A stretch of 64,000 bases of DNA from Crossiella equi. Its GTDB lineage: Bacteria; Actinomycetota; Actinomycetes; Mycobacteriales; Pseudonocardiaceae. Where the stretch lies: positions 2,170,001 through 2,234,000 of the forward strand of contig NZ_JAGIOO010000001.1 in the NCBI RefSeq assembly GCF_017876755.1, written 5' to 3'. Both the position numbers and the translations under genes were made by a program. Positions 24,164-44,458 of the stretch are shown in pieces (position 1 is the first letter of the stretch; every line of letters starts with the position of its first letter). A model generated the notes under the pieces. The model saw only the letters and a program-made list of their open reading frames with translations. It searched no databases and was not told the DNA's origin.

Positions 24164-26749
24164 ATGGTCAGCCAGGCATCGACGTCCTCCGGCACGGTCC
24201 ACGGCACCACCGAGGTGCTGGACGCCGTGGTGGTCGGCGCGGGCTTCGCGGGGCTCTACCTCGTGCACCGCCTGAACCGCCTCGGTTTCAGCGTGCGGGC
24301 GTTCGAGGCGGGCGAGGACGTCGGCGGCACCTGGTTCTGGAACCGGTACCCGGGCGCCCGCTGCGACACCGACAGCGTCGACTACTCCTACTCCTTCGAC
24401 GAGGACCTCCAGCAGGAGTGGACCTGGAGCGAGCGCTTCGCCTCGCAGCCGGAGATCCTGGCCTACCTGCGGCACGTCGCGGACCGCTTCGACCTGCGAC
24501 GGCACTTCTCCTTCGGCACCCGCGTGCGGCGCTGCGAGTTCGACGAGGCCACCGACACCTGGACCGTGCGCACCGACCGCGGCGACCTCGTGCGCGGCCG
24601 CTACCTGCTGGCGGCGACCGGTTCCCTGTCCGAGGCGAACATCCCGGACCTGCCCGGCCTGGCCGACTACCGCGGGCAGACCTACCACACCGGCAGCTGG
24701 CCCGCGACCGACGTCGACTTCACCGGCAAGACCGTCGGCGTGCTCGGCACCGGCTCCTCGGGCGTCCAGGTCATCCCGGCCATCGCGGCGCGGGCCGCGA
24801 GCCTGCACGTCTTCCAGCGCACCGCGAACTTCACCGTGCCCGCCCGGAACGCGCCCCTGGACGAGGCCTTCAGCAAGCAGGTCAAGGCCGGCTACGCCGC
24901 CCGCCGCCTGGACACCCGGACCTCCGACGCCGGTTTCCCCAACGTGCACCCGGACCGGTCCGCGCTGGCGGACACCCCCGAGCAGCGGGAGCGGACCTAC
25001 GCCGCGGGCTGGCAGGCGGGCGGGGTGCCCGGCATCCTCGGCGCCTACACCGACATCTTCCTCAGCCCGGAGGCCAACGAGACCGCGGCCGAGTTCGTGC
25101 GGGACCGCATCCGCGAGACCGTCACCGACCCGGCGGTCGCGGCCAGGCTGCTGCCCGGCAAGTTCCCGATCGGCGCCAAGCGGCTGTGCCTGGGCACCGA
25201 CTACTACGAGACCTTCAACCGCGACAACGTCACCCTGGTCGACCTGACCGCCAACCCGATCACCGGGCTGACCACCGAGGGCGTCCGCACCGCCGACGGG
25301 GACATCCCCCTGGACGCGATCGTCTTCGCCACCGGCTTCGACGCGATGACCGGTGCCCTGCTGAAGATGGACATCGTCGGCGCGAACGGCGCCAGCCTGC
25401 GCGAGGAGTGGGCGGAAGGCCCCGCGACCTACCTCGGCCTGGCCACGCACGGCTTCCCGAACCTGTTCTTCCTGACCGGCCCGGGCAGCCCGTCCGTGCT
25501 CGGCAACCTGGTCCCCTCGATCGAGCAGCACGTCGAGTGGATCACCGACTACCTGGACGTGCTGCGCGGGCGCGGCGTCACCCGGGTCGAGGCCGACCGC
25601 ACCGCGCAGGAGGTCTGGGGCGAGCACGTCGCCACCGCGGCCTCCTTCACCGTCTACCCGCTGGCCGACACCTGGTACTCCGGCGCGAACATCGACGGCA
25701 AGCCCCGCGCCTTCATGCCCTACGCGGGCGGCATCGGCACCTACCGCCGGATCAGCGACGACGTGGCGGCCAAGGGCTACCCGGGCTTCGTCGAGCACGG
25801 CGGTGCCGCCGCGACCAAGGCGCGGCTGGACCCCGGCGCGCAGGGCCTGATCTACCTGCTGACCGCGCTGGGCGACCCGAACCCGGAGGACCAGCCGGTG
25901 GCAGAGGCCCGCGCGGGGCTGGCCGCGGCGATCGGCCAGGTCGACCTGCCCGGCGAGGAGATGGCCGCGGTGGCACAGCTCCGGGTCCCGGTGGCCGGGC
26001 GCGAGGTCCCGGCCCGCCTGTACACCCCGCACGGTGGTGAGACCGGCCCGGTCGTCGCGTACTTCCACGGCGGCTGCTGGGTCCTCGGTGACCTGGAGAC
26101 CCACGACGGCTTCTGCCGCCACCTGGCCGACCGGCTCAAGCTGCGCGTGCTCGCCGTGGACTACCGCCGGGCGCCCGAGCACCGGTTCCCGGCCGCGCAC
26201 GAGGACTGCCTGGACGTCACCACCTGGCTGGCCGGTTCGCCGGGAGAGGTCGGGGCGCCGGTGGACGGCGTGGTCGTCGCGGGCGACAGCGTCGGCGGGA
26301 ACATGGCCGCGGCCGTCTCGGCCTCCGGGCTGGTCCCCGGCCTGCGCGCCCAGCTGCTGCTGTGCCCGGTGACCGACGTGTCCCGGCAGAGCGCCTCCTA
26401 CGCCGAGTTCGCCGAGGGCTACCTGATGGACCGGAGCACCATGGAGGCCTTCCGCGACGCCTACGCCCCGGACCCGGCCACGCACACCGACCCCCGGCTC
26501 TCGCCGCTGCTGGCGGAGGACCTGGGCTCGGTACCGCCGAGCGTGGTCCTGGTCTGCGGGTTCGACATCTTCCGCGACGAGGGCCGCGCCTACGCCGAGC
26601 GCCTCGCCGCGGCGGGCGTGCCCACCCGCTGCCACGAGGCGCCCTCGCTGATCCACGGTCCGACCATGATGCGCGCCGCCGTGCCCGCCGGGGCCGAGGT
26701 GCTGGACCGCTGCGTCGACGACCTGGGCCGCCTGCTCGCCCGGCCCTGA
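24164..26749 (+). CDS. Baeyer-Villiger monooxygenase fused to alpha/beta hydrolase
   Basis: The product is 861 residues from ATG 24164 with CAGGGAG upstream. Residues 25-30 are the FAD site (GAGFAG) and GTWFWNRYPGARCD follows. The BVMO fingerprint is Y169-RGQTYHTGSW-P180 with His175 and Trp179. The NADPH site begins at Gly195 (GTGSSG). From about residue 590 an HSL-type hydrolase follows: oxyanion motif H635-GGCW, nucleophile Ser709 in GDSVGG, Asp801 in FDIFRDEG and His831. One chain can therefore oxidise a ketone to an ester or lactone and hydrolyse it. It is the first gene of the cluster. Confidence 0.93.
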   Translation: MVSQASTSSGTVHGTTEVLDAVVVGAGFAGLYLVHRLNRLGFSVRAFEAGEDVGGTWFWNRYPGARCDTDSVDYSYSFDEDLQQEWTWSERFASQPEILAYLRHVADRFDLRRHFSFGTRVRRCEFDEATDTWTVRTDRGDLVRGRYLLAATGSLSEANIPDLPGLADYRGQTYHTGSWPATDVDFTGKTVGVLGTGSSGVQVIPAIAARAASLHVFQRTANFTVPARNAPLDEAFSKQVKAGYAARRLDTRTSDAGFPNVHPDRSALADTPEQRERTYAAGWQAGGVPGILGAYTDIFLSPEANETAAEFVRDRIRETVTDPAVAARLLPGKFPIGAKRLCLGTDYYETFNRDNVTLVDLTANPITGLTTEGVRTADGDIPLDAIVFATGFDAMTGALLKMDIVGANGASLREEWAEGPATYLGLATHGFPNLFFLTGPGSPSVLGNLVPSIEQHVEWITDYLDVLRGRGVTRVEADRTAQEVWGEHVATAASFTVYPLADTWYSGANIDGKPRAFMPYAGGIGTYRRISDDVAAKGYPGFVEHGGAAATKARLDPGAQGLIYLLTALGDPNPEDQPVAEARAGLAAAIGQVDLPGEEMAAVAQLRVPVAGREVPARLYTPHGGETGPVVAYFHGGCWVLGDLETHDGFCRHLADRLKLRVLAVDYRRAPEHRFPAAHEDCLDVTTWLAGSPGEVGAPVDGVVVAGDSVGGNMAAAVSASGLVPGLRAQLLLCPVTDVSRQSASYAEFAEGYLMDRSTMEAFRDAYAPDPATHTDPRLSPLLAEDLGSVPPSVVLVCGFDIFRDEGRAYAERLAAAGVPTRCHEAPSLIHGPTMMRAAVPAGAEVLDRCVDDLGRLLARP

Positions 26750-26798
26750 CCTCGCTCCGTCCGCCCACGCTGACCGCCGAATTGGATGTAGACGGGAT

Positions 26799-28622
26799 AT
26801 GAACCAGAACCGCCCTGAACGGCTGCCCCACCTGGAGTTCGAGAGGCAGGCCGCGGCCACGCCGGACCGCGTCGCCTGCGAGTCCGAGCGCACGAGCCTC
26901 ACCTACAGCGAGCTGAACGCCCGCGCCAACCGGCTGGCCCGCGTGCTGCGCGACCGGCTGGGCGTGGGCACCGGGGACAGCGTTGGTGTGTGCACCGACC
27001 AGGAGCCCGACCTGCTCATCGCGCTGCTGGCCGTGCTCAAGTGCGGTGCGGTCTACGTGCCGATGGACGCCGCGCACCCGGTCGAGCGGATCCGCTACAT
27101 GGCCGAGAAGGCCAAGGCGGACAAGGTCCTCGTCTCCGGCACCGAGGTCGTGGCGCCGTTCGCCGAGGCCGGGGTCGACCAGCACGGCCTGGCCGCGCTG
27201 GAGCAGGCGGGCGCCGGGCTGGACGCGGGCAACCTGACCGGTGCCCCGCCCGCGGCCAGCCGCATGTACATCATCTTCACCTCGGGTTCGACCGGGCGGC
27301 CCAAGGCGGTGGAGTCCTCGCACGCCGCGCTGCTCAACAACCTGGACTGGTTCACCGGCCAGAGCGGCCTGCGCGAGGACGACTGCTGGCTGCAGACGAT
27401 CAACCCGTGCTTCGACCCCTCGCTGTACGTGCTGCTGCCCTTGGTGATGGGCGCCCGGGTGGCGTTCCTGGGTGGCAAGCGGCGCATCGACGGCGACACC
27501 ATCGTCGAGGCCCTGCGGCCCCACGGCGGCACGCACCTGATGGTGGTGGCCACGCTGCTCAAGGTGGTGGCGGCCCACCCCGGGTTCGCCGGGTGCGACC
27601 GCCTGCGCCAGGTCATCACCGGCGGCGAGATCGTGCGCCCCTCGGTCGTGGACCAGGTCCGCCAGGTGCACCCGGCGGTCGGCGTGCAGAACATCTACGG
27701 GCCGACCGAGACCACGATCATCACCAGCGCCTGGAACTACCACCAGGACTGGCGCGACCGGAACCCGGCGGCGCAGTCCCTGCCCATCGGTCCGGCGCAG
27801 CCCGGCACCGAGTACTTCCTACGCGACCCGGACGGCCGCTTCCACCACCTGGCCCCCGGGCTGGAGGGCGAGCTGTGCACGGCGGGCGCGGCGCTGGCGA
27901 TCGGCTACGTGGACGACGTCGACGCGACCGAGGCGGCCTTCCCCCGGGTCGCGCTGCCCGGACACGAGACGCCGCAACGGGTCTACCTCACCGGCGACCT
28001 GTGCGGAGTGGACGACGCGGGTGAGCTGTACGTGCTGGGCCGCATCGACGACCAGGTCAAGGTCAACGGCCAGCGGGTCGAGCTCGGCGAGATCGAGTCG
28101 GTGCTGGACTCGGTGCCCGGGGTGCGCGAGGCCACCGCCTTCATCGCCGGGGACCGCCTGCTGGCGGCCGTGGTCCGCGCCGGGGACGCGGACGGGCTGG
28201 CCGAGAGGACGGTGCTGGCGAAGGTGGCACAGCACCTGCCCGCCGCCTGGGTGCCCCGCCGGATCCTGTTCCTGACCGAGATCCCCCGGCAGCTCGTCAG
28301 CGGCAAGGCCGACCGCGGGCAACTCGCGGCCCTGGCCGCCGAACCGGCCCGGCCGGTGCTCGCCCACGTCCCGGCCACCGAGGACGTGCCGGAGGTCGTC
28401 GCCGCGACCCTGGCCGGGCTCATCGGAGTGGCCGCCGCCGAGGTGCCGGTCGACGAGCCCTTCGCCGACCTCGGCCTGGACTCGGTCGGCGTGCTGAAGA
28501 TGGCCCTGGAACTGGGGCGGAGGTTCGACATCAGCGTGCGCGCGGAAGAGCTGTTCGAGTTCTACACGGTGACCCTGCTCGCCGAGATGATCGAGACCCG
28601 CACCGCGGCGGTGGCCCGATGA
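26799..28622 (+). CDS. Free-standing NRPS adenylation-thiolation didomain
   Basis: The product is 607 residues. The adenylation domain spans about 10-515, with IIFTSGSTGRPK, YGPTETTI, the YLTGDL motif and the catalytic Lys503 (SGKADRG). The carrier domain follows, with phosphopantetheine Ser562 in LGLDSVG. The Asp that binds the substrate amino group is present in FDPSLY, so an alpha-amino acid is expected. I do not recognise the rest of the code. It starts 49 bases after the BVMO gene, and its stop overlaps the start of the amine oxidase (ATGA), suggesting the tethered amino acid is the oxidase substrate or the starter unit. Confidence 0.93.
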   Translation: MNQNRPERLPHLEFERQAAATPDRVACESERTSLTYSELNARANRLARVLRDRLGVGTGDSVGVCTDQEPDLLIALLAVLKCGAVYVPMDAAHPVERIRYMAEKAKADKVLVSGTEVVAPFAEAGVDQHGLAALEQAGAGLDAGNLTGAPPAASRMYIIFTSGSTGRPKAVESSHAALLNNLDWFTGQSGLREDDCWLQTINPCFDPSLYVLLPLVMGARVAFLGGKRRIDGDTIVEALRPHGGTHLMVVATLLKVVAAHPGFAGCDRLRQVITGGEIVRPSVVDQVRQVHPAVGVQNIYGPTETTIITSAWNYHQDWRDRNPAAQSLPIGPAQPGTEYFLRDPDGRFHHLAPGLEGELCTAGAALAIGYVDDVDATEAAFPRVALPGHETPQRVYLTGDLCGVDDAGELYVLGRIDDQVKVNGQRVELGEIESVLDSVPGVREATAFIAGDRLLAAVVRAGDADGLAERTVLAKVAQHLPAAWVPRRILFLTEIPRQLVSGKADRGQLAALAAEPARPVLAHVPATEDVPEVVAATLAGLIGVAAAEVPVDEPFADLGLDSVGVLKMALELGRRFDISVRAEELFEFYTVTLLAEMIETRTAAVAR

Positions 28623-30097
28623 GCACCCACACCGACATCGCGGTCTGCGGCGGCGGCATCTCCGGCCTGTACACCGCCTACCAGCTCAAGAAGCGGCAGC
28701 CCGAGCTCCAGGTCAGCGTGTACGAGGCGACCGGGCGGTTCGGCGGCAAGATCCAGACCGTGCCGATGCTCGGCGGCGCCTTCCACGCCGAGTACGGCGG
28801 GGTGCGGGTCGAACCCGACCTCCAGACCACCGTGGACGCGTTCGTGCGCGAGCTGGGCCTGCCGGTGCGGGAGATCACCTCGCACGAGGCCGGGTCCACC
28901 GGTCTGCGGCCCGCGCTGGAGCGGCTGACCGAGCAGGAACGCGAGCTGGCCACGCTGCACCTGGACGGCGACATCGCCCTGGCGCTGCTGGTGCACGCGC
29001 TGGAGACCATCGTCGGCGACCAGTGGCCGATGGCGACCGACTCGCTGGACCGGCCGGGCCGCGAGCAGGACCGCGCACGCTTCTGCCGCGAGGCCGTCTT
29101 CGACGGCAAACCCCTGTACCAGCAGGGCATCTGGAACGTCCTGGCCGAGGTGCTCAGCTACGAGGCGGTGGAGTTCTGCCGCGAGAAGGGCACCTTCTAC
29201 AACATCAAGAACCAGAACCAGAACGCGGCCGAGTGGATCGCGCAGCTGCTGGACATGCTGCTCCTGGAGCAGCCGTCCTACCTGCCGGTCGGCGGCATGG
29301 AAGCCCTGCCGAGGCACGTGGTCGAGGTGCTGCGCACCATGGGCGTGCACCTGCACACCGGCCACCGCCTCATCACCCTGACCGAGACCGCCGACGGTGA
29401 ACGCCTCACGCTGGGGCTGCGCCGCGCCGACGGCGAGACCGTCGAGGTGACGGCCGGACGGGTCGTGCTCGCCCTGCCGCAGCAGCCGTTGCGGCGCCTG
29501 GCCTCCCAGCTGCCCGGGCAGGTGACGCGCTGCCTGGACGCGGTGCTGCCCTTCCACATGACCTGGGCCTGCTGCGTGGTCGAGGACCCGTGGTGGGACG
29601 CCGACACCCTGCCCGCCAACGGCGAGCGCACCCCGGTCCGCGCGGTGCACTTCGAGGTCAGCCCGGACGCACGCCACGGCATGGCGATGTTCTACTGCGA
29701 CGAGCCGTGGATCACCTACTGGCGCAACCTGGTCGAGGACGGGTCGGGCGAGCTGCTTTTCGAGCAGACCGAGCCGCTCACCAACACCGGGGCGCGCCTG
29801 CGCCGCGAGCTGGAACGCGCGCTGCGGACCACCTTCGACCGCACCGGGACGCCACGGATCGTCGAGTGGGGCATCCGCGACTGGAGCCTGCCCCCCTACG
29901 GCGGTGGCGCCCACCTGTGGCAGCCCGGCGTGGACACCGAGGGCGTCATGCACACCCTGGAGGCCTTCTCGCTCGGCTCCGGCAAGACCAACGTCCACAT
30001 CTGCGGCGAGGCCTACTCGACCTGCCAGGGATTCATGGAAGGTGCCCTGCGCTCCGCGGAGCGCGTGCTGGCCGCCATCGATCGCGACGGCAAGTAG
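28619..30097 (+). CDS. FAD-dependent amine oxidase
   Basis: The product is 492 residues. Its ATG lies in an ATGA overlap with the A-T gene. Residues 11-16 form the dinucleotide site (GGGISG), the ribose-binding Glu is in VYEATGRFGGKI with the double-Gly motif, and the C-terminus has the amine-oxidase FAD closure (HICGEAYSTCQGFMEGALRSAE). This is the monoamine-oxidase/L-amino-acid-oxidase fold. It would convert an amine to an imine, giving a ketone after hydrolysis. Its tight coupling with the A-T gene suggests action on the carrier-bound amino acid or on a released aminoketone, which would create a substrate for the BVMO. Confidence 0.9.
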   Translation: MSTHTDIAVCGGGISGLYTAYQLKKRQPELQVSVYEATGRFGGKIQTVPMLGGAFHAEYGGVRVEPDLQTTVDAFVRELGLPVREITSHEAGSTGLRPALERLTEQERELATLHLDGDIALALLVHALETIVGDQWPMATDSLDRPGREQDRARFCREAVFDGKPLYQQGIWNVLAEVLSYEAVEFCREKGTFYNIKNQNQNAAEWIAQLLDMLLLEQPSYLPVGGMEALPRHVVEVLRTMGVHLHTGHRLITLTETADGERLTLGLRRADGETVEVTAGRVVLALPQQPLRRLASQLPGQVTRCLDAVLPFHMTWACCVVEDPWWDADTLPANGERTPVRAVHFEVSPDARHGMAMFYCDEPWITYWRNLVEDGSGELLFEQTEPLTNTGARLRRELERALRTTFDRTGTPRIVEWGIRDWSLPPYGGGAHLWQPGVDTEGVMHTLEAFSLGSGKTNVHICGEAYSTCQGFMEGALRSAERVLAAIDRDGK

Positions 30098-30125: not shown

Positions 30126-33100
30126 ATGAACAGCTTCGACACGGGGTCCGCGGAGACCGCGATCATCGGCATGGCCTGCCGGCTGCCCGGTGCCGCCCAC
30201 GACCTGGACGGCCTGGCCGAGGTGGTGCTGGGTGCGCTCGACGCCACCTCGGACCTGCCCGCCGACCGCTACGCCGCCCGCACCCAGGACCTGCCCGCGC
30301 CCGTGCGGCACGGCGGGTTCCTCGCCGACTCGCCGTGGCTGTTCGACCACGCGGCCTTCGCCATCTCGCTGAAGGAGGCCACCTACACCGATCCGCAGCA
30401 CCGCCTGCTGCTGGAGGTCGCCTACCACGCGCTGGAGGACGCGGGCATCGACCCGTCCTCGCTGCGCGGCACCCGCACCGGCGTGTTCGTCGGACTGTCC
30501 ACCCAGGACTACGCCCGCCGGATGGCCGAGGGCGGGGAGTACAACGGCTTCTTCGCCCGCGGCTCGGGCGGCTGCATGGCGGCCGGGCGCATCTCCTACC
30601 ACCTCGGCCTGGAGGGCCCGAGCGTCGTGGTGGACACCGCCTGCTCCTCCTCGCTGGTCGCGGTGCACCAGGCCCGCGCGGCCCTGGCCTCCGGCGAGTG
30701 CGACCTGGCGATCGTGGCCGGGGTGACGCTGCTGCTCTCCCACGACTACGGCGTGGACTTCGACCAGGCGGGCATGCTGGCCGCGGACGGCCGCTGCAAG
30801 CCGTTCACCACCAGGGCGGACGGCTTCGCCCGCGGTGAGGGTGTCGGCGCGGTCGTGCTGACCCGCCCCGAGCTGGCCCGCGCGCAGGGGCGGCGGGTGC
30901 ACGCCTGCGTCCTGGGCAGCGCGGTCAACAGCGACGGGCGCAGCAACGGCATCACCGCGCCCTCGCAGAAGTCGCAGCGCCGGGTGATCACCGACGCGAT
31001 GGCCGACGCGGGCGTGCGCGCCGAGCAGGTCGCCTACGTGGAGACGCACGGCACCGGCACCGACCTCGGCGACCGCATCGAGCTCTCCGCCCTGGCCGAG
31101 GTCTTCGGCGGCCGCGAGACCCCGCTGCACCTGGGCGCGCTCAAGGCCAACCTGGCGCACACCGAGAGCGCGGCGGGCATCGCCAACCTGATCAAGGCCG
31201 CGTTCTGCGTGAGCCGGGGCTTCTTCCCGCCGCACGCCTTCCACACCGACGTCGACAACGGCCTGGCCCTGGACCGCTTCCACGGCACGATCCCGGGCAC
31301 CCCCGTGGCCTGGCCGGAGACCGACCGGCGGATCGGCGGCGTCAGCTCCTTCGGCATCAGCGGCACCAACGCGCACGTCATCGTCGGCAACCCGGAATCC
31401 CGGGAGACCCGGCCGAGCGAGTCCACTGTGGACGTACCGGGGCACGTGCTGCACCTGTCCGCGCGCACGGCCCCGGCCCTGCGGGCGCTGGCGGTGCGCT
31501 ACGCCGAGCACCTGGCGCGCACGCCCGCCGTCGACCTGGGCGCCCTGGGCGAGGCGGTGCTGCGGCAGCGGCAGGTCTGGCCGCACCACCGCCTGTCGGT
31601 CACCGGCCGGGACGCGGCCGAGCTGGCCGCGGCGCTGCGGGCCCGGGCCGAGGACGGCGTGGTGCCCTCGCCCACCCGCAAGGTCCTGTTCCACCTCGGC
31701 GGCCAGGGCCACGAGCTCGCCGCCTACCCGGGTCTCCAGGCCGTGTTCGAGGACTGCGCGGCCCGCGTAGGAGCCCTGGCGGGCGGTGACTCGCCGCTGC
31801 TGTCCCGGTTCCTGCACGACTACGCGCTGGGCACGTTCTGGCTGTCCCTGGGCGTGCGGCCGCACGCGGTGCTCGGCCACGGCGCCGGGCGGTACGCCGC
31901 GGCCTGCCTCACCGGCGAGCTGGACCTGGAGACCGCGGTCCGCGAGCTGCTCGCCGACACCCCGGCCGAGACCCCGGACGCGGCGGCCGTCCTCCAGGCC
32001 GCCCTCGACGCCGAGGCCGAGATCGTCCTCGACCTGGGCGCCACCCCGGAGTCCTCGGCCCGGGGCAAGGCCCTCGCGGACGGGCGGGTGCGCTGGCTGG
32101 CCACCGTCGAAGAAGCCTTGGCCGGACTCGTCGAGTACCGCAGGCTCGACCCCCGCGCCGCACACCGGGCCCTGTGGGGCGAGGAGCCGGTGGCGCACCA
32201 CGTCGACCTGCCGCACTACCCGTTCGACCGCGCCCTGCTGGTCCCGCCGTCCTGGACCGCCGAGCCCGCCCCGGCCCGGCCCGAGGTCGCGCCCCTGCTC
32301 ACCTCCGGCACCCCCGGCGCGGGCAGCCAGGACCTCGTGGTGGACGCGGGCAGCGCCGCACAGGCCTGGGTCACCCAGCACCGCGTCGGCGGCCAGGCCG
32401 TGCTGCCCGGCACCTTCTCCCTGACCGCCGCGCTGGAGCTGTCCGCCCGCTGGCTCTCCCTCGGCGGCACCCCGACCGCGCCGGAAGCGCTGGAGATCAG
32501 CAACCTCACCCTGCAACGGCCGGTCGTCTTCGCCGAGGACACCGCCACCCGGCGGCTGCGGTTCACCTTCGAGGCGGCCAACGCCTCGGGCCGCCACACC
32601 GTCCGCCTGCTGGACGCCGACCAGCCGGAGCTCCCGGTCTGCGTCGACGCGCAGGTCGGCCTCGCCCCGGCCGCCCAGCCCTCCCCCGGCCCGGTCCTGG
32701 CCGACGGGACCGCCTGGGAGAGCTCGGAGCCCTTCTACACCCAGTACGCCCGGCACGGCGTCGAGTACGGCGAGCTGTTCCGCCGCGTCACCCGCTTCCA
32801 CCGCGTCGGCCCGACCGAGATCGTGGCCCGGATCGAGCCCCCGGCCGCCACCGGGCTCGCCGTGACGCACCCGGCCTTCCTGGACAGCTGCCTGCACACC
32901 CTCGGCATGTGCGTCGGCCTGCCCGACCGCGCCTACGCGCCGGTCTCGGTCAGCACGGTGCGGATCCACGACCACCGCGCCTGGGACCAACCGCTGCACT
33001 CCCACGTGGTGCTGCGCGCGGTCACCCCGCAGCTGTCCGAGGGCGACCTCCGGGTCTACACCGAGCAGGGCACGCTGGTCGCCGAGCTGCTCGGCGTCAC

Positions 33101-36100
33101 CTGCCGCGGCATCGCCGACTCCGGCTTCGAGCAGCGCCCCCGCGTCCACCACGACCTGGTCTGGGAGCCGCGCACCCCGGCCGCCCCCGACGCCCTGGCC
33201 GGACAGACCTGGCTGCTGGCCGACTTCGACTCCCCCGAACGCCAGGTCGGCCTCTTCGACGAGCTCGAACGCGGCGGCGCGCACGCCGTACCCCTGGAGC
33301 TGGGCACGTGGTACCCGGACGCGCGGCCCGGTTTCCCCGTCGCCTGGCGCGCCATCCCGGCCGTGCACACCCTGGTCGTCGGCGGCCTCGGCTCGGTGTC
33401 CGCGACCGGACCGGAGCAGGTCGCCGAGACGCTGGCCTCCTACCTCAAGACCCTGCACGCCCTGGTCGGCTTCCTGGAGGACCGCCACCCCGGCGCGCTG
33501 CGGCAGCTGTGCCTGCTGCACGAGCCGAGCCCCGCGGCGGGCGAGACCAGCGACATGCTGGCGGCCGGACTGGCCCACGCCGTGGCGCTGGCCTTCCCCA
33601 CCGAGTTCCCCCGGCTGCGCGCCGGGGTCCTCTCCGGTGACACCGCGGTCACCGGGACCGCCCAGGCGATCGCGGGCATGCGCGAGCACCCGGCCGAGCC
33701 GGTCCCGGACGGCCTGCGCACCCCGTTCTGGCGGTACGCGGCGGGCGAGCTCGCCCAGCAGTGCACCCGGCCCGTCGCGGGCGGGGCCACCGAGGCCTTC
33801 CAGTGCCACCCCGACGGGGTCTACGCCGTCACCGGCGCCTTCGGCGGGATCGGCCGCCTGGTCGTCGAGTCGCTGGTCCGCGACCACGGCTGCACCCGGC
33901 TGCTCCTGCTCACCCGCGCCGCGGAGCCGACCGACGCGGAGCGGATCGCCTGGTGCGACTCGCTGCGCGCCCGCTACGGCGTGCACCTGGGCCTGGTCCC
34001 CTGCGACCTGGCGGACCCGGCGTCGGTGACCGCGGCGCTGTCGCTGGTGCGCACCACGCTGCGCGGGGTGTTCCACCTCGCCGGTACCACCGACGACCGG
34101 TCGCTGGGCAACACCGACGCCGCCCAGCTGCGCCGCGTCCTGGCCGGGAAGGCCTGGGGCGCCTGGGCCCTGCACCAGGCCACCCGCGACTTCCCCCGGC
34201 TCGACGTGTTCGCCCTGTTCTCCTCCGTCGCCGCCCTGGTGCCCTCGCCCGGTCAGCTCACCTACGCGCTGGCCAACACCTGCCTGGCCCACCTCGCCGA
34301 CCGGCGGGCCGAACGCGGCCTGCCCGCGACCGTCCTGCACTGGGGCTCCTGGGCGGGCACCGGCATGATGGGCGAGGCCGCGCCCAGGACCAGGTCCGCG
34401 GCGATGCGCGCCCTGCGGCAGCTGGACCCGGCCGAGGCCACCGGGCTGCTGTTCCAGGCCCTCGCCGACAACCGCCCGGTGGCGCAGGCCGTCTTCGCCA
34501 CCAACGACTCCGCGGCCACCGCACCCCGGCCCACCGCACCGCGCCCGGCCGCCGCACCCGAGCGGACCGCCAGCGCACCGGCCGCCGAGGAAGGCCTGGA
34601 CGCCGTCCTGCTGGCGCTGATCGCGACCGAGACCGGCGAGGCCGCCGACGGCATCGACGCCGAGGTCTCCCTGGAGGACCTGGGCGTCGACTCGGTCAGC
34701 ACCATCCGCATCCGCGGCGAGCTCCAGGACCGCTACCAGGTCTCCATCCCGGCCACGCTGTTCCTGGAGACCAAGACCGTGCGCGCCATCCGCGACGAGC
34801 TCGCCGCGATCATCGAACCGGCGGCGGGCACCACCCCCGAGCCGGTCGCCGACGTGTGCGAGAGCGTGCAGCGCTTCGACACCGCGGTCCAGCTGCCGCT
34901 CTCGCTCAACCAGTTCGCCCTCTGGTACGAGCAGCTGCGGGTCCCGGACAACCACGCCTACCACTGCGCGGTCGGCTGGCGGATCGAGGGCGATGACCTG
35001 CACGTCGACGCGCTGCGCGAGACCTGGGCGGGCCTGCTGGCCGAGCACGAGCTGCTGCGCGCCACCTTCGACGGCGTGGACGGCGAACCGTCCTACTACG
35101 TGCACGGCGTGGGCTCCGTGCCCGAGGTCGCCGAGATCCACCTCGAAACCCTGCCCGGCGCCGAGGACGTCCAGCCGCGCGTCCAGGCGCTGCTGCGCGC
35201 CGAGATGCCCCTGGACCGGGTGCCGCCCACGCGGGTGCGCCTGCTCCGGGTCCCGGGCGAGGCCACCTACCTGGTGTTCCTGTCCCACCACGTGGTCATG
35301 GACGCCGAGGCCATGTTCCACGTCGGCGTCCAGCTGCTCCGCGCCCTGGTCGGCGAGGAGGTCCCCGCCGGGACCGCCAGCACGCCCTACCGCGAGTTCG
35401 TGCAGGCGCAGCGCGCCATCACCCCGGCCCGCCTGGACGCCGCCGTCGAGCACACGCTGCGCAGCCTGGTCACCGAGGACGGCGACCTGGTCCGGCTGGA
35501 GCTGCCGACCGACCGCCCCCGGCCGACCGAGCCCACCCCGGCGGGCGGCTCGGTGGCCTTCGTGCCCAGCCCCGAGGCCGCCGCGGCCCTGGCCGCCGTG
35601 CCCGCCGGACGCCGCACCGCGCTGTGCCTGGGCACCTGGCTGCTGCTGCTCGCCCGCTACACCGGCCAGCAGCGCCTGGTCACCGGGATCGCGCTCAACG
35701 GCCGGTCCCAGCAGCGGTGGATGGACACCGTCGGGCACTTCGTCAACGTCCTGCCCCTGGGACTGACCGTCGACGAGCGCGCGATGACTGTGGACGGTCT
35801 GGTCGCCTCGGTCCGCGAGGCGCTGCTCAACTGCGTGGAGCACCAGGACGTGCCGCTGGCCGTCCTCGCCCGCGACCAGCGCCTGCGCTCGGCCCAGGGC
35901 CAGAGCGAGCTGCTCCAGACCTACTTCAACTACTTCGACGCCTCCGCCATGGCCCGGGCCGCCGGTGCCGCGGCCGACCAGGTCAGCCCGCTGCTGATCC
36001 CGCAGCAGGAAGCCCAGTTCGACGTCAGCCTGTGGGTGACCCAGCTGGCCGGGTCCTTCCGCTTCGAGCTGAAGTACCGGGCCGACCTCTACGACGAGGA

Positions 36101-39100
36101 CACCATCGCCCGGATGGGCGCCCACTACGACCGGCTGCTGACCGGCCTGGCCGACCCGGCGCACAACGGCAGCACGCTGTCCGGGCTGCCCATGCTGGCC
36201 CCGGCCGAGCTCGCCCCGCTCGCCGCGGGCACCGGGCCCCTGGGCGGCGAGGTGCGGCCGCTGCCCGCCCCGGCGAAGCTCACGCACGAGATCTTCGAGG
36301 AGCACGTCCTCGCCACCCCCGACGCGATCGCGGTCGAGTGGGGCACGCACACCCTGACCTACGCGGAGCTGGACGCCGCGGCCAACACCCTCGCGGAGTC
36401 GTTGCGGGGCCTGGGCATCGGGCTGGAGGACCGGGTCGGGCTGCTGCTGCCCCGCTTCGGCAGCCCGGAGACCGCCATCGCCATGCTGGCCATCTGGAAG
36501 TGCCGGGCGGCCTACGTGGCCCTGGACCTCAAGCACCCGGCGGCCCGCACCGGCTACATGCTGGACACCGCCTCCTGCACCGCGGTCGTGGTGCGCACCG
36601 GCGCGCTGAGCGAGCAGGCCCGCGAGGCCCTGGCCCAGCGCCCGGAGCTGGCGCGGGTGGCGGTCCGCCTCGACCCGGCCAGCCGCGAGCTGGCCGTGCG
36701 GGCCCCGGAGAACCCGGTGCCCGCCAAGGCCCCGGCGGTGACCGAGCGGGAGAAGTCCGGCCGCCTGGCCTACGTGCTCTACACCTCCGGCAGCACCGGC
36801 AACCCCAAGGGCGTCATGGTCGAGCACGGCGGCCTGGTCGAGCGCCTGGAGTGGATGCGCGAGTACTTCTCCTTCGGCCCGGCGGACAAGTTCCTGCAGG
36901 GCACGGTGATCACCTTCGACATCTCGGTGCCCGAGTTCTTCCTGCCGCTCATCGCCGGGGGTGCCATGGTGCTCTTCGCCGAGGACGACAACGAGCACTC
37001 CCACCCCGCCGTCTGCGACCGGCACGGCGTGACGCTGATGAGCACCGTGCCCTCGCTGATCAACGTCCTGGTCGACCGGCTGGTGCGCTGCGCCTCGCTG
37101 CGCGATGTGATCTCCGTCGGAGAGATCCTGATGGCCCCGGTGGTCAACGCCTGGCTCGCCTCCGGCACCCGGGCACGGCTGCAGAACCTGTACGGCCCCA
37201 CCGAGGCCACCATCTACGCCACCTACCACCACTGCGACACTCCCCCGGCCGGGACCGGCGCCCTGATCGGCGTGGCCTGCGAGGGCGTGCTCTGCTGGGT
37301 GCTCGACCCGCTCGGGCGGCCGGTGCCGGTGGGTGTGCCCGGTGAGCTGTACCTGGGCGGCAGCGGCGTGGCCCGCGGCTACCTCGGCGCGGCGGCCAAC
37401 CCGTTCGCGGACAACCCCGGCCAGGCCGAGGGCGAGCGGATGTACAAGACCGGCGACCTGGTCCGCTGGCTCGCCGACGGCACCCTGGAGTACATCGGGC
37501 GCAACGACTTCCGCGTGAAGCTGCGCGGCCAGCTCATCGAGCTGGGCGAGATCGACCACGCGCTGATGGACGTCCCGGGCGTGCGGCACGCCACCACGCT
37601 GGTGCTGGAGGACCCGAGCCAGGGCAAGCAGCTGCTCGCCGCGGTGATCGGCGACGGGCTGGTCGAGGCCGACCTCCAGGCCGTGCTCGGGCAACGCCTG
37701 CCGGTGTACATGGTCCCGTGGCGGATCCTGTCCTACGAGGAGTTCCCGCTCAACAGCAGCGGCAAGGTCGACCGCAAGGCCCTGGGCGCCCGGCTGCTCG
37801 CCGACGTCGCCGCCTCCCTGGAGGAGTCCGCGCGGGACTCCGGCACCGCCCCGGCCACCGGCGCCGAACGCGCGGTCGCCGAGCTGTGGAGCCGCCTGCT
37901 GGGCATCCCGGACATCGGGGTGGCGCAGAGCTTCTTCCGCCTCGGCGGCAACTCGCTGACGCTGACCAAGATGGTCCTGGAGGCCGAGCGCGAGCTCGGG
38001 CTGGGCGTCGACCTCGGCCGCTTCCTCCAGTCCCCCGACATCCGCGGTTTCCTCGCCGCCACCGGCCAGGGCACCGCCCCGGCCGCCACGGCACCGTGGC
38101 GGGCGGACCTGGCGGACCTGGCCCCGGCCCGCGCCTTCCCCGGGACCACGGTGAAACCGGACGGCGCGTACCTGCTGACCGGTGCCACCGGACACCTCGG
38201 CACGCACCTGCTCAAGCAGCTGCTGACCCGCACCGGCGCGCACGTCTACGCCGTGGTCCGGGCGGCCGACGACGAGCAGGCCGGGCAGCGGCTGGCCCAG
38301 CGCTACGCCGAGGTCTTCGCCGGGACCTACGACCACCGGCGGGTCACCGCGCTCGCCGCCGACCTCGGTACACCGCGGTTCGGGCTCTCCCCGGAGCGCT
38401 ACGCGGAGCTGACCGGGCGGGTGTCGCGGATCGTGCACAGCGCGGCCCACGTCAACCACTCCGCCGACTACCAGACCATGCGCACCGGCAACGTCACCGC
38501 CACCCGGCACGTGCTCGCCTTCGCCGCCGACGCCGGGGTGGAACACCTCCACTTCGTCTCCACCCAGTACGCGGGCCTGCCCGAGCTGACCGAGCGGTGG
38601 GCCGACGAGCGCACCCTGGAAGGCCTGGAAGGCGGCTACGAGCAGACCAAGTACGTCGCCGAGCTCCTGGCCCGGCACGCGGCCGCCGCGGGCTACCCGG
38701 TCTCGGCCTACCGCCTGCCGCTGCTCATCGACGGCACGGACACCCGCTCGCACGAGCAGAACCACTTCGTGATGTTCGCGCTGAAGTGCCTGGCGATCCG
38801 CGCCTACCCCGAGATCCCCCTGGAGACCGCGATCGTGCCCACCGAGCACGCCGCGGAGTTCCTGGTGGCACGGTCCACGACCGTGGCGCCCAGCGCCGTG
38901 CGCAACCCCCACCTGGGGCGTCTGTCCACAGAGGACGTGATGGTGGCGCTGTCGGAGACCTCCCCCATGAAGTCCCTGCCCTACGAGGAATGGCTGGCCC
39001 GGGTCAAGAGCGAGACCCTGGAGACCGAGCCGTTCTTCCGAGTCCTCCCGTTGTACACGGGGATCGGCGACCTGACCGGCATCCGCCCCGTGGGCAGCGC

Positions 39101-39244: not shown

Positions 39245-40429
39245 ATGCACGTCAGCAAGACGCGCCACATCAGCTTTTTCGACACCACCCTCCGCGACGG
39301 CGAGCAGGCCCCGGGGTACGCGCTGACCATCGACCAGAAGATCGCGCTGGCCGAGACCAACGAGCGCCTCGGGATGAACGTCATCGAGACCGGCTTCCCG
39401 ATCTCCTCCCCGGCCGACTTCGAGGCCACCCGGCAGATCAGCCAGCTGCTGAAGAAGGCCAAGCCCTGCGGCTTCTCCCGGCTGCTCAAGGACGACATCG
39501 ACGCCTGCGCGGACTCGATGGTCGGCCACCACCCGGACCCGCAGATCGAGCTGCTGGTCTCCTCCTCCGACATCCACATCCGCTACAAGCAGGGCTCCAC
39601 CCGCGAGGCGATCACCGAGCAGACCCGGGCCGCGGTGCGCCACGCCAAGGAGCGCGGCTTCACCGACATCTCGCTGGCCCTGGAGGACGCCACCCGCGCG
39701 GACGTCGCCTTCCTCAAGGAGCTGTCCGGGCACGCCATCGACGAGGGCGTGACCACGCTGGCCGTCCCGGACACCGTGGGCTGCGCGCTGCCCGGCGAGT
39801 ACAAGGAGCTGATCAGCGAGATCCGCGCGTTCGTCGGTGAGGACATCACGGTGTCCGTGCACACCCACGACGACCTCGGCCTGGCCGTGGCCAACAGCCT
39901 CGCCGGTCTGGAGGGCGGCGCGAACGAGGTGCAGACCACGCTGTGCGGCATCGGCGAGCGGGCGGGCAACTGCTCCTTCGAGGAGATGGTCGCGATCCTG
40001 GCGAACAAGCAGCACCAGCTGGGCATGACCTACGACATCGTGCAGCACCGCATCCACCAGGCCACCGCCCAGCTCGCCGAGTACGTGAACCTGCGGCTGC
40101 CGCGGCACAAGTCCATCATCGGCGAGAACGCCTTCGCCACCGCCGCGGGCATCCACCAGCAGGGCGTGATGAAGTACCGCTTCATCTACGAGTTCATGCG
40201 CGCCGAGGACTTCGGCGGCGAGTCGCGGATCGTCGTCGGCCGCCACAGCGGGCGCAGCATCCTGCGCCAGCGCCTCAACGAGGCCGGGATCAAGGACATC
40301 GAGCCCACCCGGCTGGACGCCCTCTACGCCACGGTGATGACCTCCGGCCGCGCCGAGGACTACAACGACGCGAAGCTGCTGGCCGACCTGTACGCCGGGC
40401 TCGACGCCGACGTCGACCTGGCCTCCTAG
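39245..40429 (+). CDS. Short 2-isopropylmalate synthase-like enzyme (no regulatory domain)
   Basis: The product is 394 residues from ATG 39245. The DRE-TIM barrel is intact: FFDTTLRDGEQAPG at the start, VPDTVGCALPGEY, the metal-binding HTHDDLGLAVAN, and GIGERAGNCSFEE. It ends near residue 394, whereas full LeuA enzymes are about 500-600 residues with a C-terminal leucine-binding domain. It thus resembles homocitrate-synthase-like or pathway-specific enzymes that escape feedback. It would condense acetyl-CoA with a 2-oxoacid to start one-carbon chain extension, completed by the next four genes. The actual 2-oxoacid is unknown. Confidence 0.9.
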   Translation: MHVSKTRHISFFDTTLRDGEQAPGYALTIDQKIALAETNERLGMNVIETGFPISSPADFEATRQISQLLKKAKPCGFSRLLKDDIDACADSMVGHHPDPQIELLVSSSDIHIRYKQGSTREAITEQTRAAVRHAKERGFTDISLALEDATRADVAFLKELSGHAIDEGVTTLAVPDTVGCALPGEYKELISEIRAFVGEDITVSVHTHDDLGLAVANSLAGLEGGANEVQTTLCGIGERAGNCSFEEMVAILANKQHQLGMTYDIVQHRIHQATAQLAEYVNLRLPRHKSIIGENAFATAAGIHQQGVMKYRFIYEFMRAEDFGGESRIVVGRHSGRSILRQRLNEAGIKDIEPTRLDALYATVMTSGRAEDYNDAKLLADLYAGLDADVDLAS

Positions 40430-40439
40430 GAAGAAGCGC

Positions 40440-41384
40440 ATGAACACCGACTTCATCTGGCACAACGGCAGCATCAAGCCCTGGGCCGAGGCCACCGTCA
40501 ACGTCAGCGCGCACGCCCTGCACTACGGCTCCTCGGTCTTCGAGGGCGAGCGGGTGTACCAGACCCCCGACGGCCCGGCCTTCTTCCGCCTGGCCGAGCA
40601 CACCCGCCGCCTGTTCTTCTCGGCCAAGGTGCACGGGATCGAGATCCCGTACGCCCCCGAGGAGATCGACGCGGCCTGCCACCGGGTGGTCGCGGCCAAC
40701 GGGCTGGAGTCGGCGTACCTGCGCCCCATCGCCTTCCGTGGTGCGGGCAGCCTGGAGGTGGTGCCCAAGCGCGGCGGCCCGGTGGACGTGGCCGTCATCG
40801 CGCTGAGGCTGGGCGCCTACCTGGGCGACGCGGTCGAGCACGGCGCCGACGTGTGCGTCTCCTCCTGGCACCGCCCCGCGCCCAACACCTTCCCCGCCTG
40901 GGCCAAGGCCGGTGGCAACTACCTGTCCAGCCAGCTGATCAGCCAGGAGGCCTACCGCAACGGCTACGACGAGGGCATCGCCCTGGGCCACAACGGGATG
41001 CTCGGCGAAGGCGCGGGGGAGAACGTGTTCCTGGTGCGGCAGGGCACGCTGCTGACCCCGTCGGGCGGCTCCGGCATCCTGGCCGGGATCACCCGGGACA
41101 CGGTGCTCACCCTCGCCGGGGAGCTGGGTGTGCCCGTCCAGGAGTGCGACCTGCCCCGCGAGGCGCTCTACGCCGCCGACGAGGTGTTCATGACCGGCAC
41201 CGCCGTCGAGATCACCCCGGTCCGCTCCGTCGACCGCAAGCCGGTCGGCGAGGGCAAGCCGGGCCCCGTGACCCAAGCCCTGCAACAGGCCTTCCACGGC
41301 CTGTTCGACGGGCGCACCGAAGACCGTTGGGGCTGGCTGACACCGCTCGACCCCGACCACGCCGCTGGAGGAGACCTCTCATGA
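40440..41384 (+). CDS. ilvE: Branched-chain aminotransferase, IlvE type
   Basis: The product is 314 residues from ATG 40440, ten bases after the synthase. The PLP lysine is Lys156 in [12 protein letters not shown]. Other fold-type IV motifs are [23 protein letters not shown] and [12 protein letters not shown]. The length and the ending ([10 protein letters not shown]) are of the enterobacterial IlvE kind, shorter than the roughly 360-residue enzyme usual in actinomycetes (from memory). It makes the amino acid from the extended 2-oxoacid. Its stop overlaps the leuC start (ATGA). Confidence 0.92.
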
Positions 41385-42787
41385 GCAAGCCACGCACCCT
41401 GTTCGAGAAGATCTGGGACGCCCACCTGGTCGCCCCGGAGAGCACCGAGACCCCCGCGGTGCTCTACATCGACCTGCACCTGGTGCACGAGGTCACCTCG
41501 CCACAGGCCTTCACCGAGCTGCGCGACCGGGGCCTGACGCCGCGCCGCCCGGACCGCATGCTGGCCACGGTGGACCACTCCACGCCCACCCTGCCCGTCG
41601 CCGCCGACGGGGAGCGGCCCTATGTCAGCGACGGCGCCCGGAGCCAGGTCGCGCAGCTGGAGCGCAACTGCGAGGAGTTCGGCGTCGAGCTGCACAGCTG
41701 GAACAGCGACGAGCGCGGCATCATCCACGTGATCGCACCGGAGCTGGGCGCCACCCAGCCGGGCATGACCATCGTGTGCGGGGACAGCCACACCTCCACG
41801 CACGGCGCGTTCGGCGCGCTGGCCTTCGGCATCGGCACCACCGAGGTCGGGCACGTGATGGCCACGCAGTGCCTGTTGCAGCGCAAGCCGCAGACCTTCG
41901 CCATCCACGTCGACGGCGAGCTGCCGAAGGGCGTCGGGGCCAAGGACCTGATCCTGCACATCATCGGCCAGATCGGCATGAACGGCGGCACCGGCTACGT
42001 GCTGGAGTACCGCGGCCCGGCCATCGAGGCGCTGTCCATGGAGCAGCGCATGACCGTGTGCAATATGTCGATCGAAGCAGGCGCGCGAGCGGGTCTGATC
42101 GCGCCCGACGAGACCACCTTCGCCTGGCTGAAGGGCCGGGCACGGGCGCCGAAGGGTGCGGACTGGGACGCCGCGGTGGCCCGGTGGTCGGAGCTGCGCA
42201 GCGACGAGGGCGCGCGCTACGACCGCGAAGTGCGCATCGACGCCAGCAAGATCACCCCGACCGTCACCTACGGCACCAACCCGGGCATGGCGATCGCGAT
42301 CGACCTGCCGGTGCCCACCGCGCGCACCCCGCAGGAGCAGAGCGCCCTGGACTACATGGGCAGCGAGCCGGGCAAGCCGATGCGCGGCACGCCGGTGGAC
42401 ATGGTGTTCGTGGGCAGCTGCACCAACTCGCGGCTGGGTGACCTGCGCGAGGCGGCCGAGGTGCTGCGCGGTCGCAAGGTCGCGCCGGGTGTGCGCATGC
42501 TGGTGGTCCCGGGCTCGGAGGCGGTGCGCCGGGACGCCGAGCGCGAGGGCCTGCACGAGGTGTTCACCGCGGCCGGTGCGGAGTGGCGCATCCCGGGCTG
42601 CTCGATGTGCATCGCCATGAACGGTGACCTGGCCCAGCCCGGCCAGCTGGTGGTGAGCACGTCCAACCGCAACTTCGAGGGCCGCCAGGGCAAGGGTGCC
42701 CGCACCGTGCTGGCCAGCCCGGCCACCGCGGCGGCCTCAGCCCTGGCGGGCGTGGTCTCCGACGCCCGCGCCTACCTCGCGTCCTGA
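41381..42787 (+). CDS. leuC: 3-isopropylmalate dehydratase, large subunit
   Basis: The product is 468 residues from ATG 41381, overlapping the aminotransferase stop. The 4Fe-4S ligands are Cys347 (GSCTNSR), Cys407 and Cys410 (PGCSMC). Aconitase-family substrate motifs include [13 protein letters not shown] and [12 protein letters not shown]. With the small subunit it isomerises 2-alkylmalate to 3-alkylmalate. In this cluster it may act on a non-leucine homologue. Confidence 0.95.
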
Positions 42788-42821
42788 GGCCCCCTCCCAC
42801 CACACTGCTTGGAGCTCTCGC

Positions 42822-43406
42822 ATGGAACCCGTCACCCGCATCCAGTCGCGCACGGCGGTGCTGCTGGACGAGAACATCGACACCGACCGCATCATCCCGG
42901 CGCGCTTCCTCACCGTCACCGACCGCGCGGGCCTGGGCAAGCTGTGCTTCCACGACTGGCGCTACCAGCCGGACGGCACGGACAACCCGGACTTCCCGCT
43001 CAACGAGGTCGACATCAACACCAGCTCGATCCTGGTGGCGGGCCGCAACTTCGGCTGTGGCTCCTCCCGCGAGCACGCCCCCTGGGCCCTGCTCGACTAC
43101 GGGATCCAGGCGGTGCTGTGCAACGAGATCGCGGACATCTTCTGCAACAACGCCCTGAAGAACGGCCTGCTGGCGATCGTCCTCGGTGACGAGCAGCACC
43201 AGTGGCTGTTGGACAATCCCGGGGTGTCCCTGAGCATCGATGTCGAAGCGCAGCGCATCGAACTGCCCGACGGCAGCCACTTCGCGTTCACCCTCGAACC
43301 GTTCGCGCGGCACTGCCTGCTCAACGGCGTCGACCAGCTCGGGTTCCTCTCCCAGCACGCTGACGCGATCAGCGCCTACGAACAGCAGATGGAGAAGTCC
43401 GCATGA
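42822..43406 (+). CDS. leuD: 3-isopropylmalate dehydratase, small subunit
   Basis: The product is 194 residues from ATG 42822 with TTGGAG upstream. It shows [14 protein letters not shown], the swivel-domain motif [14 protein letters not shown] and [14 protein letters not shown]. The size matches the bacterial LeuD family. It is the partner of the preceding leuC. Its stop overlaps the next start (ATGA at 43403-43406). Confidence 0.95.
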
Positions 43407-44458
43407 AGGCACAGATCGTCACCCTGCCCGGCGACGGCGTGGGCCCGGAGGTCACGGCCGCGGCGGTGGCCGTCCTCGAGGCCGTGGCCACCCGCCACGG
43501 GCACGAGCTCACCTTCCAGGAGCACCTGATCGGGGGCGCGGCGATCGACGCCACGGGCGACCCGCTCCCCCCGGCCACGGCGGAGGCGGCCCAGTCCGCC
43601 GACGCGATCCTGCTGGGCGCGGTGGGCGGCCCGAAGTGGTCGGACCCGAACGCCCCGGTCCGCCCGGAACAGGGCCTGCTGGCCCTGCGCAAGCTCCTGG
43701 GCGTCTACGCCAACCTGCGCCCCCTGACCGTCCACCCGGCCCTGGCCGACCTCTCCCCGCTGAAGAACGAGAAGCTCCAGGGCGTTGACGTCCTCTTCGT
43801 CCGCGAGCTCACGGGCGGCGCCTACTTCGGCACCAAGACCCGCACCGGGGACCTGGCCACCGACGAGTGCCGCTACACGGTCGCCGAGGTCGAACGGGTC
43901 ACCCGCCGCGCCTTCGAGCTGGCACGCCTGCGCCGCAACCACGTCACCTCGGTCGACAAGGCCAACGTGATGGAGACCTCCAGGCTGTGGCGCGACACGG
44001 TCCAGCGCGTGGCCAAGGACTACCCGGACGTGACGCTCGAACACCAGCTGGTCGACTCGATGGCCATGCTCATGCTCTCCCGCCCGTCCACCTACGACGT
44101 GGTCGTCACCGAGAACATGTTCGGCGACATCCTCACCGACGAAGCCGCGGCCCTGGCCGGCTCCCTGGGCCTGCTCCCCTCCGCCTCCCTGGGTGAGGGC
44201 ACCAAGGGCCTCTACGAACCGATCCACGGCTCGGCCCCGGACATCGCGGGCCAGGGTGTGGCCAACCCGACCGGCACCATCCTCTCGGCAGCCCTCCTGC
44301 TCCGCTACTCCCTGGGCCTCCAGCAGGAAGCGGCGGCGGTGGAATCGGCGGTGCACCACGTCCTCGCCGAGGGCCCCCGCACCCGGGACATCGGCGGCAC
44401 CGCCACCACCCAGGAGGTCGTGGACGCGGTCCTGAAGGCCCTCACCGAGACCCGGTGA
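43403..44458 (+). CDS. leuB: 3-isopropylmalate dehydrogenase
   Basis: The product is 351 residues from ATG 43403. Motifs include [20 protein letters not shown], the substrate-binding [26 protein letters not shown] and [12 protein letters not shown]. This is the longer IPMDH form with [11 protein letters not shown]. Housekeeping enzymes of actinomycetes are usually the shorter form (from memory). It oxidises and decarboxylates the 3-alkylmalate to the one-carbon-longer 2-oxoacid. It is the last gene of the cluster and is followed by a perfect hairpin. Confidence 0.95.

Follow-up and report, generated by a model that had tools for sequence, protein, structure and literature searches.

A candidate amino acid homologation and NRPS-PKS-NRPS gene cluster with a decayed acyltransferase in Crossiella equi

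The single-contig genome of Crossiella equi (9.44 Mb) contains an operon of nine co-directional genes on the plus strand, here named g1-g9, at positions 24164-44458 of the window, which is the 64,000-nucleotide stretch analyzed in this work (genome positions 2170001-2234000). Among plasmid records, the 16S sequence of the genome comes closest to that of Tsukamurella (92%), as would be expected of a member of the order Mycobacteriales. We propose, with moderate confidence, that the operon is an orphan cluster of the nonribosomal peptide synthetase (NRPS)-polyketide synthase (PKS)-NRPS type, which would supply itself with a homologated amino acid and yield a small product through reductive release. 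Every module of the cluster is of a known type, and what is new is the combination, the decayed acyltransferase (AT) and the presence of an oxidase together with a complete homologation block. An earlier sequence-only reading had described nine plus-strand genes, several of them overlapping, with a fusion of a Baeyer-Villiger-type flavin monooxygenase (BVMO) and a hydrolase, an adenylation-thiolation (A-T) didomain, an amine oxidase, a megasynthase and LeuABCD/IlvE-type enzymes. This content is confirmed by Pfam and NCBIfam, and the layout is recovered with the same outer coordinates and three 4-bp overlaps. The megasynthase string KS-DH-KR-ACP-C-A-T-R is likewise recovered, except that the earlier reading had omitted a decayed AT between KS and DH.

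The operon is real and well formed, and probably functional. All nine frames are open up to one terminal stop, the intergenic gaps are of 49 bp at most, and the 4-bp overlaps lie at the g2/g3, g6/g7 and g8/g9 junctions; the start codons are our own choice, and the outer limits 24164 and 44458 were taken from the earlier reading. The GC content of the nine genes is 0.94-0.99 at the third codon position and 0.40-0.52 at the second, a pattern which chance frames in the window do not as a rule show, with some of them passing a similar filter. The best Pfam or NCBIfam match of each gene has an E value of 1.1e-26 or better.

The homologation block is encoded by g5-g9, where a Claisen enzyme, a two-subunit isomerase, a decarboxylating dehydrogenase and an aminotransferase are all present together, the aminotransferase gene g6 sitting between the LeuA gene g5 and the LeuC gene g7. 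Further copies of leuC (64% identity), leuB (45%) and leuD (38%) exist in the genome at about 6.33-6.35 Mb, and the copies in the cluster are therefore extra. The closest paralogue of g5, at 6.338 Mb, shares 28-30% identity with it. Structurally, g5 contains the HMGL-like and HCS_D2 domains of Pfam only, without the C-terminal LeuA regulatory domain, and reaches 382 bits with the best NCBIfam LeuA model, the cut-off of which is 532. The side-chain pocket of isopropylmalate synthases consists of Leu, Glu, Ser, Asn and Glu, according to Table 1 of PMC12961565. Guided by residue identity and spacing, we placed this pocket on the LeuA of E. coli at L73, E137, S139, N167 and E226; as the placement used residue identity, the agreement of E. 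coli LeuA with the list is no independent check. The corresponding residues of g5 are Phe, Ser, Ala, Ala and Gln, so that all five are changed, and Glu is present at position 97. When L73 is left out, the pocket is still changed at four of four positions. The E. coli LeuA mutants S139G, H97A and N167A were not located in the papers searched, and the pocket argument is made independently of them.

The pocket positions are probably right, because they are conserved across 80 LeuAs from genome_contigs, which are the best 80 of at least 587 relatives in that collection. The exact LESNE pocket is found in 56 of the 80, while Asn167 and His97 are kept in 79. A departure like that of g5 is seen among these best 80 only in Streptomyces sindenensis (L042), with the pocket L-A-G-P-Q. 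Changes at four or five of these positions are also seen in ten further short LeuAs of actinomycetes, of which seven come from genomes of the same family and three from Streptomyces plasmids; within this set, L032, L033 and L038 share the exact FSAAQ of g5. The pocket signature of the 12 actinomycete sequences is F/L, S/T/A, A/G, A/V/I/P and Q, in which the second-position Ala and the fourth-position Pro are peculiar to L042. In a LeuA tree of 92 rows, g5, the ten short LeuAs and L042 are split from the 80 others with a branch support of 100/100. The pocket residues suggest that the g5 Claisen enzyme may use a 2-oxo acid other than 2-oxoisovalerate, and all of the evidence for such an altered specificity comes from LeuA. 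The dedicated 2-oxoacid extension pathway of the earlier reading thus appears to hold, given the changed pocket, the missing regulatory domain and the other leuC, leuD and leuB genes of the genome.

The neighborhoods of the related LeuAs place this block in a wider setting. NRPS adenylation domains lie near seven of the 11 g5-related LeuAs (L024, L025, L032, L033, L035, L036 and L038), and none was found in the examined stretches of L026, L034, L037 and L042. Blocks of leuA-leuC-leuD beside NRPS adenylation domains occur in five other genomes among 390 genomes of the family and on two Streptomyces plasmids. Homologation blocks thus recur beside NRPS genes in actinomycetes, and the one described here is unusually complete. 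The two plasmid loci (L024 and L025; Streptomyces sp. NBC_00868 and S. violaceusniger Tu 4113) contain the same kind of LeuA, at 43-44% identity to g5, with the homologation block beside NRPS genes, and the order on both plasmids is leuA-leuC-leuD-aminotransferase-leuB. The KS and R domains of g4 and the g3 protein had no match in these plasmid stretches, a soft negative, as the g4 C query also missed the NRPS modules there. No g3-like gene was seen in the examined stretches around the 11 g5-related LeuAs. One A domain read at each of L033 and L038, both with an FSAAQ LeuA, has the code DAWTVAAVCK, which we take to be of the phenylalanine type and which gives a weak hint of an aromatic substrate. 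The A-domain codes at L032, also with an FSAAQ LeuA, are DALAIGGVFK and DFWNLGMVHK. At L042 the LeuA precedes IlvE-, LeuC- and LeuD-like matches, an arrangement shared with the Crossiella cluster, and no match to g1-g4 was found in the 21 kb around it. A weak KS-like match (29%) lies 7 kb from the LeuA of L035.

Two described pathways resemble this block. For the homoleucine of mycoplanecin, a leucine-type homologation cycle has been reconstituted (PMC10817943), and in this NRPS cluster of an actinomycete the LeuA-like and LeuD-aminotransferase enzymes (MypK and MypL, with primary LeuB/LeuC) lengthen 2-oxo acids by one carbon. The Crossiella cluster differs in that it encodes the whole set of LeuA, LeuC, LeuD and LeuB itself, with the class IV aminotransferase as a protein of its own, in that it adds an L-amino-acid-oxidase-like enzyme, and in its quite different assembly line. 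The HphA/HphCD/HphB pathway to homophenylalanine and homotyrosine in anabaenopeptin producers also diverts the leucine-type cycle to amino acid homologation (PMC12961565). Its HphA pocket is listed in Table 1 of that source as Ala, Asp, Ala, Met and Ser, where Ala replaces the pocket Ser of isopropylmalate synthases, as it does in g5; the other residues differ from the Phe, Ser, Ala, Ala and Gln of g5, the comparison being one with tabulated values.

The megasynthase g4 carries its catalytic motifs in KS, DH, KR, both carriers, C, A and R. Its PKS module comprises KS, DH, KR and a carrier, without an ER domain. The linker of the KS matches a CurL-like family above the cut-off and a RhiE-like family at E 0.17. 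The KR has a TDD motif, presumably at the place where B-type KRs carry LDD. The R domain matches PF07993 with E 4.7e-50, in agreement with the reductive release which had been proposed earlier; its Rossmann and YxxxK motifs are present, and its score with TIGR01746, the NCBIfam thioester reductase, is 212.2 bits, just below the cut-off of 213.35. The A-domain code of the stand-alone didomain g2, with the register set by hand, reads DPYMIGIIIK.

The g4 module appears to be without a functional AT. PF00698 matches g4 over positions 72-113 of 319 only, with 22.6 bits against a cut-off of 32.7, and this remnant is the sole one of 19 matches in the whole genome to fall below the cut-off. Its serine motif is GHGAG in place of GHSxG, which is intact in 17 of the 18 other AT matches of the genome, the exception being locus L134. 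The distance from the serine motif to the post-AT LPxYxF motif is 111 residues in g4, as against 228-245 in those 13 of the 17 GHSxG ATs in which both motifs were located. In 15 of the 17, GHSxG is followed at a distance of 93-109 residues by a His motif (xA[F/S]Hx), the pattern missing L130 and L138, and none is seen at this distance in g4. We estimate that about 120 residues of the AT have been lost; the alignment sets the tail of the remnant against the His-motif region, so that the borders of the deletion are imprecise. With the serine motif lost and this part gone, malonyl would have to be loaded in trans. Two discrete ATs, in open frames of fewer than 600 residues, are encoded in other parts of the genome, outside the window. 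One is a FabD-like open reading frame (ORF) of 310 aa at contig positions 3158632-3159564, directly followed by a FabH-like ORF, both named from our reading of the matches. The second, at 9.115 Mb (locus L137), is an open frame of 590 residues adjoining an enoyl-CoA-hydratase-like frame, which suggests a second pathway of the trans-AT type in the genome.

Loading in trans has a precedent in barnesin A, where FabD reportedly charges a PKS with KS, KR and DH, but no AT, that makes a vinylogous amino acid (PMC13096860). Like the barnesin and syrbactin systems described in that source, g4 has a KS/DH/KR/carrier module of the kind that extends an aminoacyl chain, the AT being absent from that of barnesin. 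The g4 system differs in retaining a visible decayed AT, in starting from the bare A-T didomain g2 and in ending with an R domain, whereas a thioesterase ends the barnesin PKS (PMC13096860).

The term amine oxidase given earlier to g3 is right at the level of the flavin amine oxidase family (PF01593, E 9.6e-29), and the protein is more exactly described as L-amino-acid-oxidase-like: it resembles L-amino acid oxidases (LAAOs), an L-lysine oxidase and VioA. The best NCBIfam model, VioA, scores 86 bits where its cut-off is 600, and no substrate is assigned. The top two PDB entries matched by g3, 8zf8 and 8zb2, are titled just 'FAD-binding protein', and a literature search found no publications on them. 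In all five PDB alignments listed, among which are two near-identical pairs, Arg63 of g3 falls on the Arg of the G(G/P)MR stretch. This Arg we take to bind the substrate carboxylate in LAAOs, and its retention suggests that the substrate is a free amino acid and the role one of precursor supply, so that g3 may oxidize a free L-amino acid and feed the pathway. The role of g1 is less clear. Its BVMO half has a Pfam match of E 2.1e-10 and an NCBIfam match of E 5.1e-85, the latter, to the nearest model (the pentalenolactone D synthase PtlE), being far below the curated cut-off. Matches to g1 occur in 132 plasmid records; in four of these the match spans 80% or more of g1, encoded either by a single gene or by two adjacent ones. 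In two plasmid neighborhoods (Bradyrhizobium and Roseomonas), no NRPS or PKS genes are annotated around the g1 relatives. It is uncertain whether g1 belongs to the pathway, as a borrowed enzyme for tailoring, or is a bystander.

Taken together, the proposed pathway would begin with g3, which would convert a free L-amino acid by oxidation into the corresponding 2-oxo acid. The enzymes g5, g7-g8 and g9 would then lengthen the 2-oxo acid by one carbon in a leucine-type cycle, and g6 would re-aminate the extended 2-oxo acid to an L-homo-amino acid, to be activated by g2 or by the A domain of g4. The KS of g4 would extend the aminoacyl group bound to g2 with malonyl loaded in trans by FabD or another discrete AT, the hand-over from g2 to g4 being predicted from the domain layout. 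The KR and DH would give a 4-amino-2-enoyl chain (a vinylogous amino acid), the C-A-T part would join a second amino acid, and the R domain would release an aldehyde, with closure on the free N-terminal amine to a cyclic imine being possible. The aldehyde or imine nature of the product is thus a prediction. If g1 belongs to the pathway, it would act in a late step, oxidizing or cleaving at a ketone or aldehyde. A more specific and more tentative proposal is that the LAAO-LeuA-LeuCD-LeuB-IlvE loop (oxidize, extend, re-aminate) and a FabD-dependent PKS yield a vinylogous homo-amino acid, released as an unsaturated medium-ring imine or a reactive dipeptide aldehyde; either would be a so far undescribed scaffold resembling protease inhibitors.

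Several points weigh against the proposed pathway. The first pocket position, L73, is the least sure, with 64 residues separating it from the second as compared to 84 in HphA. In the LeuA tree, g5 sits on a branch of length 1.08, and for so long a branch the program cautions that the placement may be false. The LeuB g9 has the loop EQGLLALR, where the related blocks have a different loop sequence in their LeuBs; EQGLLALR is presumably the canonical isopropylmalate dehydrogenase loop, and nothing in g9 therefore favors an unusual side chain. The A-domain codes of g2 and g4, with their hand-set register, matched no nameable substrate. The Pfam search found no MbtH, phosphopantetheinyl transferase (PPTase), transporter or regulator among the nine operon genes. 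Lastly, as regards g3 in precursor supply, its place between the A-T didomain g2 and the megasynthase g4 would also allow oxidation of a carrier-bound substrate.

That last point leads to a different assignment, in which g3 and g1 are tailoring enzymes: g3 would oxidize the amino group on the g2 carrier or after release to a keto or imine group, and the BVMO of g1 would turn the ketone into an ester for its hydrolase to cleave. We regard this as possible but doubtful. A BVMO needs a ketone or aldehyde, which the amine oxidase g3 could provide, and g3 overlaps g2 by 4 bp and stands directly before g4; yet Arg63, taken as a binder of the free carboxylate, is kept, and the relatives of g1 in two plasmid records lie outside PKS/NRPS loci. 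The leu-type genes might also merely raise the supply of 2-oxoisocaproate or leucine, free of feedback and with no unusual residue. The missing regulatory domain of g5 and the canonical appearance of g9 and g6 are in line with such a supply role, but the g5 pocket and residue 97 are changed, while 79 of the 80 database LeuAs keep Asn167 and His97. We consider homologation to be supported and a mere extra supply of leucine to be unlikely. It is more improbable still that the whole cluster is decaying, the AT loss having killed the PKS module. Such decay would agree with the AT remnant, with the truncated and broken frames in the upstream flank described below, and with the restriction of g3 to its own genome among five of the genus. 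It is countered by nine open frames of high third-position GC, by the presence of the other catalytic motifs checked, and by the existence of AT-lacking modules served in trans, as reported for barnesin (PMC13096860).

Outside the genome of Crossiella equi, the searches, which were of limited sensitivity, brought up no relative of the entire cluster. In the multi-genome searches, no more than the two to four best-ranked candidates of each genome were scored, at rather strict cut-offs, and relatives in PKS-rich genomes could be missed. Within these limits, g3 was found in its own genome only, both among the five genomes of the genus and among the 390 of the family (E <= 1e-25); four of 396 genomes of the phylum contain it, namely its own and three at 30-32% identity. 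Of the 21 pattern matches to g3 in genome_contigs, none was confirmed. Plasmids gave 13 records with g3 matches, the best at 34%; a similar cluster is absent from the annotation around three of four such loci, and the fourth (L009), which carries no annotation, showed no other match. The region of AT remnant, DH and KR was again found in its own genome only, among the 390 family genomes (E <= 1e-60) and 397 genomes of the order (E <= 1e-40). The KS-to-ACP part matched 15 plasmid records at E <= 1e-100, none covering 80%, and g2 matched three at E <= 1e-60. Among the 80 best-ranked LeuA loci in genome_contigs, a single one has a flanking match to any of g1-g4, namely to the g1 hydrolase part, in a scan which cannot exclude relatives of the cluster. 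No described cluster with this gene set was found in the open-licence literature, among the titles and abstract beginnings of the matches listed. The earlier view of an undescribed cluster is thus retained insofar as no whole-cluster relative turned up, and qualified insofar as the pairing of a leu block with NRPS genes recurs in other actinomycetes.

The cluster is of interest for application as well as for evolution. Its predicted product would carry two electrophiles, an alpha,beta-unsaturated amide and an aldehyde, which is the chemistry of covalent protease and proteasome inhibitors. With 20 kb and nine genes, the cluster is compact and suited to heterologous expression. The g4 protein represents a case of a PKS module with its own AT decayed in place, and the five-position LeuA pocket signature could serve to find homologation pathways in genomes.

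Table 1. Genes of the operon and domains of the g4 megasynthase, in window coordinates.
Feature	Positions	Strand	Basis
g1: BVMO fused to alpha/beta hydrolase	24164..26749	+	Pfam, NCBIfam
g2: stand-alone A-T didomain without C domain (initiation module)	26799..28622	+	Pfam, motifs
g3: FAD L-amino-acid-oxidase-like enzyme	28619..30097	+	Pfam, NCBIfam, PDB alignments
g4: megasynthase KS-(AT remnant)-DH-KR-ACP-C-A-T-R, 3029 aa	30126..39215	+	Pfam, NCBIfam, motifs
g4 KS domain, Cys-His-His motifs (DTACSSS, HGTGT, KANLAH)	30159..31235	+	Pfam, motifs
g4 decayed AT, part still recognized by Pfam	31824..31949	+	PF00698 below cut-off; GHGAG at 31875-31889
g4 DH domain, H...G....P (HRVGGQAVLP) and DxxxH (DSCLH)	32292..33116	+	Pfam, motifs
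g4 KR domain, GAFGGIG, S-Y-N triad; TDD motif	33816..34355	+	Pfam, motifs
g4 ACP	34605..34790	+	Pfam, motifs
g4 C domain, HHVVMDA	34893..36158	+	Pfam, motifs
g4 A domain, hand-read code DIPSIVLIYK	36294..37766	+	Pfam, code reading
g4 second carrier motif LGGNS	37941..37955	+	Pfam, motif
g4 thioester reductase (R) release domain, TGATGHLG and YEQTK	38175..38858	+	Pfam, NCBIfam, motifs
g5: LeuA-like Claisen enzyme, 394 aa	39245..40429	+	Pfam, NCBIfam, alignment
g6: branched-chain aminotransferase, type I (IlvE), class IV	40440..41384	+	NCBIfam
g7: LeuC	41381..42787	+	Pfam, NCBIfam
g8: LeuD	42822..43406	+	Pfam, NCBIfam
g9: LeuB, loop EQGLLALR	43403..44458	+	NCBIfam, alignment

The flanks of the operon contain several further elements. 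The stretch at window positions 23500-24160, about 0.6 kb before the operon, has a lower GC content of about 0.60-0.65 and is likely a promoter region; no sigma-70 promoter match was found in it. Just upstream and divergent to the operon (23054-23479, minus strand) lies the N-terminal part of a TetR/ScbR-like regulator, which ends early at 141 aa, its best profile being matched at positions 1-96 of 191 and far below the cut-off. At about 22400-22920 on the minus strand, a Tat-signal-like start is followed by a motif, which we take to resemble a 2Fe-2S subunit, and then by a stop, with similar residues going on in another frame; this looks like a broken gene. On the other side of the operon, a minus-strand ORF of 1486 aa (45790-50250) contains a subtilase, a 3-keto-disaccharide hydrolase and several ricin-type lectin domains. 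The GC content drops to 0.60-0.61 at 50-54 kb of the window. A minus-strand RHS-repeat protein of 2996 aa (52487-61477) carries DUF6531, Laminin_G and a C-terminal Endonuclea_NS_2 domain. Finally, a plus-strand gene at 61948-63366 encodes a protein with RNaseH_pPIWI_RE and MID_pPIWI_RE domains, a Piwi-like module which is presumably linked to defence.

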